NCBI GenBank assembly: GCA_022402445.1
Contig: JAKRSF010000004.1
Coordinates: 1 to 63,757 of the forward strand
Direction: 5' to 3'
DNA from: Cyanobacteriota bacterium
GTDB taxonomy: Bacteria; Cyanobacteriota; Cyanobacteriia; CACIAM-69d
Length of the DNA: 63,757 nt
This document shows, piece by piece, positions 16,640 through 25,821 of this stretch. A model generated the notes under the pieces. It ran no database searches and was not told the DNA's origin. It saw only the letters and a program-made list of their open reading frames with translations. Each line of letters starts with the position of its first letter. Within the stretch, counting starts at the first letter, position 1. The position numbers and the translations under genes are program-made.

Positions 16640-18010
16640 TTAGGGGAGATCGTCCGGCTCGTCCGGGGGGTCATCGGGGGGCGGACAGGGAAGGCGCACC
16701 TGCATCCAGGCTCCGGCGTCGGGGTGGTTGCGGGCGCGGATGGAGCCCCCGTGGAATAGGGCAATTTGCTGGGCGATCGCGAGGCCGAGGCCACTGCCGG
16801 TGCTGCGGGCTTCGAGGGCGAGGCGGGCGGGGGTGTCGGTTTGGGGGGGGCGGGCGCGGGAGGGATCGCCGCGATAGAGCCGATCAAAAATGTGGGGCAG
16901 ATCGTCGGGGCTGATGCCTTGCCCCTGGTCAATGAGGTCAACGCGGGCGTAGTGCCGTCCGTCCTCGGTGGCTTCGATCGCCAGGTCGATGCGGATGGTG
17001 CTGCCCTTGGGGCTGTATTTGATGGCGTTGTCGATGAGGTTGATGAAGAGGCGGTAGAGCTTGCCGCCGTGGCCCGCGATCCAGAGTTCCTCGGGGCCGC
17101 TGTAGGCGCACTGGAGTTCCTTGCGATCGCTCAGGGGGGTCAGGGCATTCCAGACGCTGCTGAGCAGGCTGGGCAGGTCCGTCGGTTCCGCCTCGGGGGC
17201 CAGGGTGCGATCGCGGTCCAGTTGCGTCAGATCTAGCCAATCCCGCACGAAGGCCATCAGCCGCTGCACCTCCGGCAGGGCGCGATCAACCCATTCCCGC
17301 AGGGGGGGCTCCAGGCGCTCCTGTAGGGTTTCAAAGACCAGGTGGATGGAGGTGAGGGGGGTGCGCAGTTCGTGGGCCAGGTCGCTGGTGAGGCGATCGC
17401 GGCTGCGTTCGAGATCAATGATCGCCTGTCGATTTTCCAGGAACACCACCGCATCCCCATTGGGCAGCAGTTCCGCCCGCCCCGCCAGGGCAATGCCGTC
17501 ATCCCGCAGGGGGCGATCGCCCAGGGTGGCCAGGGGATTGGCGCTGATGTCCCCCACCTCCACCGCATGGTAGGTCCAGGCCCGTTCACTGGGGCGATGC
17601 TGCTCCCGCGCCCGCTGCACCAGGCGATCCAACTCATAGGACCGCACCACCTCGATCAGCAGCCGCTGCCGCTCCAACTGCTCCGGGGCAATTCTCAGGA
17701 GCGATCGCGCCGCCCCATTGCACCACACCAGCACATTGTCTTGATCCACCAGCAGCGTCGCCAGGGGAGAGCTTTCGAGGATCCGCTGCCAGCTTTGGAG
17801 TTCCGTGGCCAGCCGCTGCTGCTGCTCGCGCGCCTCGGTGACCCCCCGCCGCACCAGCGATTCCAGGGACAGATCCACCTGGGACGTGTCCGCCGACAGC
17901 ACCATCAAACTCTGGACGATGCGCCGATGCGATCGCCACCGCTGCCAGCCCCAGAACGCCAACCCCGGCCCCAGGCCCAGCGCAAAACTCAGTAGGTCGA
18001 ACCTAACCAA
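16640..18010 (-). CDS. sphS: Phosphate-sensing histidine kinase SphS (PhoR-type)
   Basis: The 456-residue product has a short hydrophobic N-terminus (FDLLSFALGLGPGLAFWGW), a PAS-like domain (about residues 70-180) and a kinase core. The H-box is SDLAHELRTPLTS with His213. The ATPase motifs are NLIDNAIKYSPKG, DQGQGI and GSGLGLAIAQQI. Cyanobacterial SphS has this single membrane-associated segment and PAS domain. Start: TTG at 18010 overlaps the sphR stop by eight bases (TTGGTTAG), a typical coupled start; longer frames upstream only retranslate sphR. It phosphorylates SphR and is restrained by PhoU. Confidence 0.9.
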   Translation of the reverse strand: MVRFDLLSFALGLGPGLAFWGWQRWRSHRRIVQSLMVLSADTSQVDLSLESLVRRGVTEAREQQQRLATELQSWQRILESSPLATLLVDQDNVLVWCNGAARSLLRIAPEQLERQRLLIEVVRSYELDRLVQRAREQHRPSERAWTYHAVEVGDISANPLATLGDRPLRDDGIALAGRAELLPNGDAVVFLENRQAIIDLERSRDRLTSDLAHELRTPLTSIHLVFETLQERLEPPLREWVDRALPEVQRLMAFVRDWLDLTQLDRDRTLAPEAEPTDLPSLLSSVWNALTPLSDRKELQCAYSGPEELWIAGHGGKLYRLFINLIDNAIKYSPKGSTIRIDLAIEATEDGRHYARVDLIDQGQGISPDDLPHIFDRLYRGDPSRARPPQTDTPARLALEARSTGSGLGLAIAQQIALFHGGSIRARNHPDAGAWMQVRLPCPPPDDPPDEPDDLP

Positions 18011-18761
18011 ATCGATAGCCAAATCCCCGGACCGTGACAATATATTCCGGTTTGCTCGGATCGATCTCGATTTTCTCCCGTAGCCAGCGGATATGCACAT
18101 CCACGGTTTTGCTATCGCCAATAAAGTCCATGCCCCAAATCTGCTCCAGCAGGCGATCGCGCGACCACACCCGCCGGGGATGTTTCATGAACAGTTCCAA
18201 CAGGCGAAATTCCTTCGGCGACAGGGCCACCTCCTGCCCCTTCACCAGCACCCGACATTCCTGGGAATAGAGGCTCAACTCCCCATGCTGCAACACGTCC
18301 GGCGGCTGAAATTGCCCCATGCTCTGGCGGCGCAGCAGGGCGCGGCAGCGGGCCACCAACTCCCGCATACTGAAGGGTTTTGTGAGATAGTCATCGGCCC
18401 CCACCTCTAGGCCAATGACGCGATCGGTTTCGCTGGCCTTGGCGCTGAGGATCAAGATCGGTACGGGATTATTGTGCTGGCGCAGCAGGCGGCACAGGTC
18501 GAGGCCATTGACCTGGGGCAGCATCAAATCCAAAATCACCAGATCCAGCGGCGGGGCGGGGGTGGCGCTGCGATCGAGGTTCAGCAGGCGCACGGCATCC
18601 TGGCCCGTCGGCGCGACGCTCACCTCATAGCCCTCGTCCCGCAGGGCCGTCGCCACCATGTCGCGAATCAGCAGCTCATCCTCCACAATCAGGATGTGTT
18701 TGCGCTGGGTGAGGCTCGCTTCGGCGATCGCGGTTCCGGGTGCGTTGGCCAGCATATTCAT
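18003..18761 (-). CDS. sphR: Phosphate-starvation response regulator SphR (PhoB-type)
   Basis: The product is an OmpR/PhoB-class regulator of about 252 residues. The receiver domain has IVEDE, the phospho-acceptor in LVILDLMLP (Asp78) and DYLTKPFS. The C-terminal winged helix has VALSPKEFRLLELF and SKTVDVHIRWLREKIE. It activates Pho-box promoters such as that of phoX. The ATG at 18761 is chosen; an in-frame TTG at 18800 would add 13 residues. The gene overlaps sphS, so the two are translationally coupled. SphR identity rests on the sphS/phoU context and the PhoB-like sequence. Confidence 0.9.
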   Translation of the reverse strand: MNMLANAPGTAIAEASLTQRKHILIVEDELLIRDMVATALRDEGYEVSVAPTGQDAVRLLNLDRSATPAPPLDLVILDLMLPQVNGLDLCRLLRQHNNPVPILILSAKASETDRVIGLEVGADDYLTKPFSMRELVARCRALLRRQSMGQFQPPDVLQHGELSLYSQECRVLVKGQEVALSPKEFRLLELFMKHPRRVWSRDRLLEQIWGMDFIGDSKTVDVHIRWLREKIEIDPSKPEYIVTVRGFGYRFG

Positions 18762-18941
18762 CTCATCCGATGCGGATGACTCCGGGGGTGAAGTGGTCAA
18801 GGTTTTATTAGGTATCTATCACTACCATATCGCCCCTGGTTCGTTCGATCGACTCCGGTATGCCATGGGACGATCGCGGGGGAGTTTGGGCCTGCCGTGG
18901 GGATGACCCCAGACTAAGCTAGGGGGAAATGGCGGCTTTTG

Positions 18942-18971
18942 CATTAACAAACTATTAAAAATCCATTAATT
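18942..18971 (+). promoter_or_regulatory. Candidate Pho-box-like triple repeat upstream of sphR
   Basis: CATTAACA, TATTAAAA and CATTAATT lie at exact 11-base spacing (18942, 18953, 18964). Each contains the TTAA core of the cyanobacterial Pho box, but the flanks match only partly. The site lies in the divergent region between sphR (starts 18761, minus) and the leader RNA promoter (19012, plus). Either could be the target; autoregulation of sphR is a guess. Confidence 0.4.
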
Positions 18972-19011
18972 TAGGGCGACCATGAAGGAATGGGCTAGGG
19001 CGATCGCACCT

Positions 19012-19040
19012 TTGTCAAAACTTTATGGTTTGCCTATGGA
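19012..19040 (+). promoter_or_regulatory. Sigma70-type promoter of the 19-kb leader RNA
   Basis: TTGTCA (19012-19017) and TATGGA (19035-19040) are separated by 17 bases, the consensus distance. A transcript would start near 19046-19048. It lies immediately before the structured RNA and its terminator. Confidence 0.55.
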
Positions 19041-19045
19041 AGCTT

Positions 19046-19212
19046 GATGGGGGAGGGGGTTGGGTTGGGGCATTGCTCCGATAGGCTTGAAGCAGAAATT
19101 CTTGGCCTGTGCCAAGGTCTCTCGTCTAGCGGTGAATCTGATGGCTTGACGGCCGAAGGTTCGAGGCAACTCAATACAACTCTTTGGTGGGGGCTAGACG
19201 AGCCCCTTTTTT
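19046..19212 (+). ncRNA. Structured leader or small RNA with terminator and competing antiterminator
   Basis: A roughly 167-base transcript is bounded by a consensus promoter and an intrinsic terminator. It contains a hairpin CTTGGC-CTGT-GCCAAG (19101-19116) and a long-range pairing GGGTTG (19062-19067) with CAACTC (19167-19172). CTCGTCTAGC (19121-19130) is exactly complementary to GCTAGACGAG (19193-19202), which overlaps the terminator stem and loop. The RNA can therefore form either the terminator or an antiterminator. It may be an attenuator or riboswitch for the creatininase gene 54 bases downstream, or a free small RNA of about the size of 6S RNA. No known riboswitch class was recognised. 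Confidence 0.5.
19190..19212 (+). terminator. Intrinsic terminator ahead of the creatininase gene
   Basis: GGGGCT (19190-19195) pairs with AGCCCC (19201-19206) around the loop AGACG and is followed by six T residues (19207-19212). The stem is all G/C except its closing T-A pair. It lies 53 bases before the creatininase start codon, which suits premature termination control. Confidence 0.75.
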
Positions 19213-19265
19213 ATGGGCCGTTGGGGCCATACCCTAGAAGATTAGGGCGTTATGGAGGGGTTGTG

Positions 19266-20018
19266 ATGCTGTTGCACCATTGCACGTGGCCGGAGGTGGA
19301 GGCGTATCTGACGCGATCGCGGGGGATCATCATTCCCATCGGTTCGACGGAGCAGCACGGGCCGACGGGGGCGATCGGGACGGATGCCATCTGTGCGGAG
19401 GCGATCGCGCGGGGGGTGGGGGAGGCGACGGATGCCCTGGTGACGCCAACGATTTCCGTGGGCATGGCCCTGCATCACCTGGCCTTTGCGGGGAGCATGA
19501 GCCTGCGGCCCGAGACCCTGATGGCGGTGGTCCAGGATTGGGTCACGTCCCTGGCGCGCCATGGGTTTGAGCGGTTTTTCTTCATCAATGGCCACGGGGG
19601 CAATATGGCGACCCTGAAGGCGGCCTTTGCCCAAACCTATCAGGCGATCGCGGATCTCGGTACGGTGCCGGGGGGCGATCGCGTGCGCTGTCGGCTGGCG
19701 AACTGGTATATGACGCGCGGGGCCTATCAACTGGCGAAGGAGCTCTACGGGGACGCCGAGGGCAGCCACGCGACCCCCAGCGAGATTGCCGTGACCCTGT
19801 TTGTCCATCCCCCCCTGAAGCGGGAGGTGCCCCTGGAGCCCGCGATCGCCCCGTCTGGCCGTGCGATTTATGGGGCGGCCGCGTTTCGGCAGGCTTACCC
19901 CGACGGGCGCATGGGCTCGAATCCGTCCCTGGCAACGGCGGACCATGGGCAGCAATTCTATGGGGCGGCGGTGCGGGAACTCAGCGAGAGCTATCGGGCC
20001 TTTCTGGCGGAACCGTAA
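19266..20018 (+). CDS. Creatininase-family amidohydrolase
   Basis: The 250-residue product belongs to the creatininase/creatinine amidohydrolase family, which also includes MftE peptidases and FAPy deformylases. Metal-binding signatures are IIPIGSTEQHGP (about residues 20-31), GTDAIC and FFINGHGGNMATL, and EGSHATPSEIAVT contains the late Glu-x-x-His. The family chemistry is hydrolysis of a cyclic amide or C-N bond at a binuclear metal centre. The substrate is not predictable here. The ATG at 19266 follows GGAGGGG. A longer in-frame reading from 19044 covers the leader RNA and is rejected. The upstream terminator suggests conditional expression. Confidence 0.88.
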   Translation: MLLHHCTWPEVEAYLTRSRGIIIPIGSTEQHGPTGAIGTDAICAEAIARGVGEATDALVTPTISVGMALHHLAFAGSMSLRPETLMAVVQDWVTSLARHGFERFFFINGHGGNMATLKAAFAQTYQAIADLGTVPGGDRVRCRLANWYMTRGAYQLAKELYGDAEGSHATPSEIAVTLFVHPPLKREVPLEPAIAPSGRAIYGAAAFRQAYPDGRMGSNPSLATADHGQQFYGAAVRELSESYRAFLAEP

Positions 20019-23834: not shown

Positions 23835-24053
23835 GGTTTTGCGATGGGGGCGGGATTTTTTATAGGAGTAGGAACGGATGGGCGCGATCGCGCTGGTTTT
23901 GTTATGAAAGGGGCCGATGGTGGTGCGGGCGACGGAGCCTGCGGACCCTTGGGGGTTAGTTTTAGCTGATAATTCCATCATTTCACAGGTCTCCGGGGAT
24001 TGGCGTTGGTGATGAAGCGGGATAGGGGTGATCGCGGCGATCGCGGGGGAAGG

Positions 24054-25739
24054 ATGGGTTTGATCGCCTATTGGCAATGTCCGACGGGGATTTCGGGGGA
24101 TATGTGTTTGGGGGCGCTGGTGGATGCGGGGGTGCCGCTGGACTATTTGCAGACCCAGTTGGGGACGATCGCGGGTTTAGAGGGGGCGTTTCGGCTGCGA
24201 TCGCGATCGGTGTTGCGCAATGGGATGCGGGCGCTGAAGGTGATGGTGGATCTGCGCGATCGCGAGGGCTCCTGGGGCTCGGAGGGGCCGGAGGGTTCCT
24301 GGGAAGACATTAGTGGCCATTCTCACAATCACGATCACGGGCACGACGATCACGACCACGGCCACCACGACCATCACCACGGGCGTGATCACGACCACCC
24401 TCACGATCACGATCACGGCCATCATCACGATCACGGCCATTCCCATGGGCATGGTCACGGCCATCACCACGGCCACGGGCATGATCGCGATCGCGACCAC
24501 GGCCATCACCATGGGCCTGAATCGGATTCGATCTCCGGGTGCTATTCCCCCCTTCAGGGCGATCGCGCGGCCATCCGTACATTTCCCGCGATCGCGCAAC
24601 TGCTGACGGACTCGGGCCTGCCGGAACGGGTGAAGGCCATGGCGATCGCGGTGTTCCGGCGCTTAGCGGAGGCGGAGGGGGCGGTCCATGGGGCGGCCTA
24701 TGATCAGGTGCATTTCCATGAGGTGGGGGCGATTGATGCGATCGTCGATATCGTCGGCACCTGTTTGGGGCTCGATTGGCTGGGGGTCGAGCGGCTGATC
24801 TGTTCGCCGTTGCCCTTTGGGGGCGGGACCGTGCGGGCGGCCCATGGGCGGTTGCCGGTGCCGGTGCCTGCGGTGATTGAGCTATGGCAGCGGCGCGGGG
24901 TGCCCACCTACGACAACGGTATCGATCGCGAACTGGTCACCCCCACGGGAGCCGCGATCGCCACGGCCCTGGCGGAATCCTTCGGACCCTTGCCGCCCCT
25001 GGCGGTCCAGCGGGTGGGGTTGGGGGCGGGATCCCTGGATCTGCCGCTGCCCAATGTCCTGCGGCTCTGGCTGGGAACGCCCTACGACGGCAAGCCGGTG
25101 GAGAATTCAGGGGAAACCGTCACCCTGCCGCCTCTGGAGCCGCGATCGCCCCAAACCACCCATCCAAACCCTGAACCAAGTCCTGAAAACCCTGATCGCG
25201 CCGCCCTAGAACCGGTCATCCTCCTGGAAACCCAACTGGATGACCAAAGCCCCCAGGCGATCGCCTACACCCTAGAACAGCTCCTCAATGCCGGAGCGCG
25301 GGACGCCTTTTCCTATCCCGTCACCATGAAAAAAGGCCGCCTCGGCACCGCCGTTACAGTGGTCTGCACCCCTGAGTCCGTGGACCGCTGCGAGGGCATT
25401 TTGTTCCGGGAAACCACCACCCTGGGCGTCCGCCGTAGCTCCCAATTGCGCCACTGCCTCCAGCGGCGGATCGATCGCGTCGAAACCCCCCACGGCCCCA
25501 TCCGCGTCAAGGTGGCCTGGTTCGAGAATGGAGAATTGACCGGCGAGCAAACCGGCGATCGCGCCCCCCTCAACGTCCATCCCGAATATGCCGACGTGGC
25601 CGATCGCGCCCGCGCCACCAACACCCCCTGGCAAACCGTCCACCACCACGCGATCGCCGCATGGCACACCCAGCAGCAGCAGATCGCCCCCGGCCATCCC
25701 AGCGATCCCAGCGGTCCCCCAGCGCAGTATTCTGACTGA
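24054..25739 (+). CDS. larC: Nickel-pincer cofactor biosynthesis protein LarC with His-rich insert
   Basis: The roughly 561-residue product matches LarC, which inserts nickel into the pincer nucleotide cofactor of lactate racemase. The N-terminus YWQCPTGISGDMCLGALVDAGV is diagnostic. Later segments GAAYDQVHFHEVGAIDAIVDI and ETQLDDQSPQAIAYTLEQL mark the C1 and C2 halves, here in one frame without the programmed frameshift found in Lactobacillus. Residues about 87-156 (24312-24520) are a His/Asp/Gly-rich loop of over 30 histidines, probably a nickel store. No larB or larE is nearby. The ATG at 24054 matches the family start. Confidence 0.9.
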   Translation: MGLIAYWQCPTGISGDMCLGALVDAGVPLDYLQTQLGTIAGLEGAFRLRSRSVLRNGMRALKVMVDLRDREGSWGSEGPEGSWEDISGHSHNHDHGHDDHDHGHHDHHHGRDHDHPHDHDHGHHHDHGHSHGHGHGHHHGHGHDRDRDHGHHHGPESDSISGCYSPLQGDRAAIRTFPAIAQLLTDSGLPERVKAMAIAVFRRLAEAEGAVHGAAYDQVHFHEVGAIDAIVDIVGTCLGLDWLGVERLICSPLPFGGGTVRAAHGRLPVPVPAVIELWQRRGVPTYDNGIDRELVTPTGAAIATALAESFGPLPPLAVQRVGLGAGSLDLPLPNVLRLWLGTPYDGKPVENSGETVTLPPLEPRSPQTTHPNPEPSPENPDRAALEPVILLETQLDDQSPQAIAYTLEQLLNAGARDAFSYPVTMKKGRLGTAVTVVCTPESVDRCEGILFRETTTLGVRRSSQLRHCLQRRIDRVETPHGPIRVKVAWFENGELTGEQTGDRAPLNVHPEYADVADRARATNTPWQTVHHHAIAAWHTQQQQIAPGHPSDPSGPPAQYSD

Positions 25740-25821
25740 CAGGATTGGGCCGCGCGCCTTGATCCTTAACGACCCCTTAACCGGTGAGGGTTTCGGGGTT
25801 TTCCACCTAGCCCCTACCCCC

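Follow-up and report, generated by a model that had tools for sequence, protein, structure and literature searches.

Immediately upstream of a creatininase-family gene in a 63,757-nucleotide stretch of cyanobacterial DNA (the window) lies an intergenic segment containing an apparent intrinsic terminator and a second sequence able to pair with it, and this raises the question of whether the segment encodes an RNA that controls the gene, a small RNA of its own, or no regulated RNA at all. The reading that we tentatively favour, from the sequence and its predicted folds, is that it is a lineage-specific attenuator leader ahead of the creatininase-family gene (Table 1). The RNA layout is unusual and plausible as a lineage-specific switch, not a demonstrated one; transcription from this point, use of the switch and control of the downstream gene are our inferences. 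The product of that gene matches the Pfam Creatininase family with high significance (E 4.3e-68), and because it scores under every NCBIfam equivalog cut-off listed, its substrate is not assignable from sequence comparisons. The divergent side of the locus encodes a PhoB/SphR-like regulator (sphR), a PhoR/SphS-like kinase, and phoU. As sphR is transcribed away from the creatininase-family gene, a terminator on the + strand here can serve only transcripts that start in the intergenic region or antisense within sphR.

Table 1. Coordinates of sequence features at the sphR–creatininase locus (window positions; a dot indicates no strand assignment)
Feature	Position	Strand	Remarks
PhoB/SphR-like response regulator, divergent	18003..18800	-	
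Three TTAA cores, 11-base spacing, Pho-box-like; possible SphR site	18944..18969	.	Pattern match
Candidate promoter, weak	19012..19040	+	TTGTCA 19012-19017, 17-base spacer, TATGGA 19035-19040
Putative leader RNA or sRNA, 167 nt	19047..19213	+	Sequence, folding; no Rfam match
Antiterminator 5' arm, CTCGTCTAGC	19121..19130	+	Exact complement of 19193-19202
Candidate anti-Shine-Dalgarno arm	19175..19185	+	Pairs with 19255-19265 in read-through RNA; predicted
Intrinsic terminator	19190..19212	+	Stem 19190-19195/19201-19206 and six T
Antiterminator 3' arm, GCTAGACGAG	19193..19202	+	Overlaps terminator stem and loop
Shine-Dalgarno region (GGAGG, GAGGGGTTGTG context)	19255..19265	+	Directly 5' of start codon; sequence
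Creatininase-family gene	19266..20018	+	PF02633

The terminator with its six T residues, the exact 10-base competing pairing and the 167-nt extent of the segment, all reported in an initial annotation of the window, were confirmed by script at their coordinates. The terminator (GGGGCT-AGACG-AGCCCC) has six pairs and a 5-base loop followed by TTTTTT at 19207-19212, and is situated in the 5' leader about 50 nt ahead of the gene start. Bases 19193-19195 and 19201-19202 are common to the terminator and the antiterminator, and the two helices are therefore mutually exclusive. By itself the terminator is no rarer than chance genome-wide, as a strict search of 400 kb on both strands identifies three distinct sites and four Markov simulations yield 1, 4, 0 and 0 per strand. 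The competing helix, in contrast, exceeds chance expectation. With the hairpin fixed and the preceding 142 nt dinucleotide-shuffled, a complement of at least 10 bases arises in 43 of 20,000 shuffles, and when 84 terminator-like sites from 400 kb of this genome are compared over the 150 nt upstream of each, the competing arm of the leader is the longest, with a length of 10 bases occurring at 1/84 sites and of 9 bases at 3/84.

These figures bear directly on the simplest alternative, that a G-rich intergenic stretch happens to hold a hairpin resembling a terminator and, by accident, a complementary 10-mer, with no regulated RNA. The random level of strict terminators fits such an origin, as does the selection of this candidate out of 64 kb; however, the scarcity of the 10-mer among shuffles, its first rank among the 84 sites, and its position in a divergent intergenic stretch right before a gene do not, and we consider pure chance an unlikely origin of this bistable attenuator anatomy. 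The overall folding energy is more in keeping with chance. Although the leader folds with lower energy than shuffled sequences (z -2.96, 2/200; z -2.5, 9/500 in a second run), the opposite strand folds comparably (z -2.66, 6/500 shuffles), and the signal is lost when the terminator is removed (z -1.03, 76/500 shuffles).

Comparison of the alternative folds suggests that the leader is bistable, with the antiterminator favoured in the terminated RNA, and the terminator, together with a helix that covers the ribosome-binding site, in the read-through RNA. The predicted energies of the two folds lie near each other. For the terminated RNA they are -66.3 kcal/mol with the antiterminator versus -61.6 kcal/mol with the terminator enforced, corresponding to a predicted equilibrium probability of 0.94 for the antiterminator. 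This helix is dominant for five of six assumed 5' starts, with the sixth (19100) giving 0.46 versus 0.54 for the terminator. The 3' antiterminator arm is transcribed ahead of the last bases of the terminator, and in truncated folds seven of the ten antiterminator pairs are present from 19199 onward. In the read-through RNA the predicted preference is for the terminator (-97.6 versus -90.4 for the antiterminator in RNA 19047-19290), which has a predicted probability of 0.99 in RNA 19047-19330, the reason being that 19175-19185 can in this RNA base-pair to the Shine-Dalgarno region at 19255-19265. If the transcript starts at 18979 the terminator and antiterminator folds are equal (-121.8 and -121.7).

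The equilibrium dominance of the 10-bp helix in the terminated RNA would equally suit a stand-alone terminated sRNA of ~167-235 nt, in which this helix is part of the mature fold and the creatininase-family gene is merely a neighbour with its own promoter. Against this, a 10-bp helix that forms early would oppose termination, which is unfavourable for a plain sRNA gene, and a promoter scan identified none between the terminator and the gene (19213 to 19266); such an sRNA also lacks a homologue in the genomes searched and an Rfam match. We regard the stand-alone sRNA as a close rival of the attenuator leader, if a somewhat doubtful one.

As an attenuator leader, the nascent RNA would form either the terminator hairpin or the 10-bp antiterminator (19121-19130 paired to 19193-19202). 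Where a read-through RNA carries the terminator, 19175-19185 could also mask the Shine-Dalgarno region, and as the antiterminator would exclude the Shine-Dalgarno helix in a nested fold, transcription and translation could both follow from a single choice of helix. Masking of the Shine-Dalgarno region in the predicted read-through fold has modest support: the helix occurs by chance in 86 of 5,000 shuffles of the nearest 27 nt and in 246 of 5,000 when 59 nt are considered, and the region is covered as fully in 2.7% of 150 shuffled leaders, whereas wider duplex tests give no significance (302/2,000 and 1,573/2,000). Some attenuators block the ribosome-binding site as well, and the leader resembles this class in its predicted terminator-state fold, but differs in that the support is modest and disappears in the wider tests.

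Assignment of the 5' end is less straightforward, the promoter being the weakest element of the layout. The initial annotation described a promoter with 17-base spacing, and the hexamers and their spacing do exist; however, they match the consensus at 8 of 12 letters, the -10 box is without its final T, and a consensus promoter scan of 18800-19400 calls none. An alternative reading places the hexamers TTAACA and TAATTT at 18944-18972. With several promoter readings possible, the 5' end of the putative leader is therefore not fixed.

No similarity to a catalogued RNA was identified. Rfam searches of the whole window give no match at the gathering level, and at permissive settings the best match, a Burkholderia sRNA, scores 15.8 bits against a cut-off of 48; neither threshold yields a catalogued riboswitch aptamer, in agreement with the earlier impression that no known riboswitch consensus is present. 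ARAGORN finds no tRNA or tmRNA genes in the window. A 6S-type RNA had been raised as a different explanation, and the likeness to 6S RNA (RF00013) is one of length only: there is no covariance match in the window, and the only 6S match in the genome is on another contig (G000:C9:486028-486214, 89.3 bits). The 6S identity is excluded as far as tested, and we consider 6S or any other catalogued RNA the least probable of the explanations. The proposal that the substrate or product of the hydrolase might act as a ligand likewise found no support, nor did a metabolite ligand for the leader more generally. Terminator/antiterminator attenuators, such as the expression platforms of riboswitches, have in common with the leader the exact and exclusive helices, the six T residues and the location just before a gene, but the leader differs in having neither a recognised aptamer nor homologues, and its transcript is putative.

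We also considered whether the segment could encode an N-terminal extension of the creatininase-family protein, as the creatininase reading frame is open for 89 codons upstream and is stop-free from 18999 to 19266. The third-position GC of 19047-19265 is 0.51, however, versus 0.82 within the gene, nearly all orthologues start at the position corresponding to the ATG at 19266, and that ATG has a GGAGG close ahead of it. A coding role is thus highly improbable, and we reject it.

The creatininase-family gene is widespread, with a member present in 52 of 59 genomes (own included), and the leader is not. Our sample of its own order is six genomes in three genera, with its own genus represented by the source genome alone. 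DNA searches of the 59 genomes identify, beyond the leader itself, only 22-31 nt fragments in three genomes, and within the order only 19-26 nt fragments. The matches reported by nhmmer over 124 loci are three copies of the window itself, and blastn over these loci adds short chance pieces, the best being 32 columns in L004 (E 0.001) involving the G-rich 5' part. A single-sequence covariance model, R1, built on 19098-19213, finds only itself in 145 class genomes, where the stricter filters applied at this size make weak matches losable, and only itself in 62 sources (L015, L054, L062 and L066-L115 left out).

A terminator scan covered 60 of 110 creatininase loci (L006-L065, with L066-L115 left out), from which we removed L015 (too short), five duplicate upstream regions, L054 (match at a contig end) and L006 (the window), leaving 52 other distinct orthologues. 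In none of the 52 does a terminator lie in the 130 nt before the start, and terminator-like sites closer than 400 nt are present in three (L010 at -196, L025 at -221, and L044 at both -338 and -134). In the two genomes of the same order with a close orthologue (G001 and G003) a different gene precedes the creatininase gene and sphR is on another contig; neighbours of the creatininase gene are not conserved in the order, and no version of the leader is recognisable by eye when the sequences preceding sphR are inspected in five relatives.

On the evidence of these searches the leader is an orphan, recognised in the source genome alone, and as it is without homologues among the genomes searched, base-pair covariation has no alignment behind it. 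The description of the locus as a textbook switch is partly borne out: the exclusive terminator and antiterminator are present in the sequence, and the leader is absent or unrecognisable in the relatives searched. Loss of the competing helix from related genomes had been offered as an outcome that would count against the switch, and here it is the whole leader that is missing or unrecognisable, which bears weakly on the point and does not contradict the helix base by base. Absence of conservation in the relatives, order and class genomes searched counts against the attenuator reading and in favour of a chance origin, and the lack of a terminator within 130 nt in all 52 orthologues, which also counts against the attenuator, is compatible with a stand-alone sRNA in that it leaves such an RNA with no tie to creatininase. 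The non-conserved neighbours, the weak promoter and the equal fold signal on the opposite strand likewise speak against the attenuator. Separately, we note that one relative contains a 39-residue fragment with 77% identity to the creatininase N-terminus (G013:C4:296924-297040) just upstream of its full copy (297393-298130), perhaps a partial duplication.

A Pho-box-like repeat with a period of exactly 11 bases is located between sphR and the leader. According to two published accounts, the Pho box of cyanobacteria consists of three TTAA-core repeats in tandem, with a period of 11 bases (PMC1906773, PMC11126600), and one of them states that autoregulation of sphS/sphR is no general rule among cyanobacteria (PMC1906773). 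Relative to the SphR (PhoB) Pho box as given there, the repeat shares the three TTAA cores, the 11-base spacing and the location adjoining sphR, and differs from CTTAACCT in the flanking letters. The exact TTAA triple occurs once in the genome, at 18944-18969, versus seven occurrences of a reversed control pattern, and with one mismatch there are 10 matches versus 27 for the control, so there is no genome-wide enrichment. Because the control patterns outnumber both the exact and the one-mismatch matches, it is by position only that the repeat is suggestive of a candidate SphR site. By eye, neither strand has a TAN3T/A -10 box ~10 bases downstream of the repeat.

Since the three-TTAA repeat adjoins sphR, the attenuator leader is possibly phosphate-linked. 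In the simple option, phosphate would set the amount of RNA through the Pho-box-like repeat, and read-through would be fixed or kinetically tuned. The repeat lies equally upstream of a stand-alone sRNA and to that extent is in favour of one. A more elaborate version of the attenuator, in which a genus-restricted, dual-acting switch governs both termination and exposure of the ribosome-binding site, is transcribed from a promoter under phosphate control by SphR, and possibly senses a metabolite, seems to us very unlikely as a whole. If the attenuator reading is correct, the cyanobacteria would gain an orphan attenuator leader, and a widespread and uncharacterised creatininase-family gene its first regulatory handle; at present the leader is a candidate from one genome.

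We also note two further features. Three loci from relatives (L126 on the reverse strand, L128 and L129) have by eye a common stretch upstream of sphR, TTGGTATCGT...CGTATACC...TACGAAA, which is missing from the sphR of the window. Elsewhere in the window, a 579-aa open reading frame (24000-25739, + strand) contains a long histidine-rich stretch and is presumably similar to the nickel-insertion protein LarC, and just 3' of its end at 25739 there is a two-repeat YTTAAY Pho-box-like match on the + strand (25765-25781).
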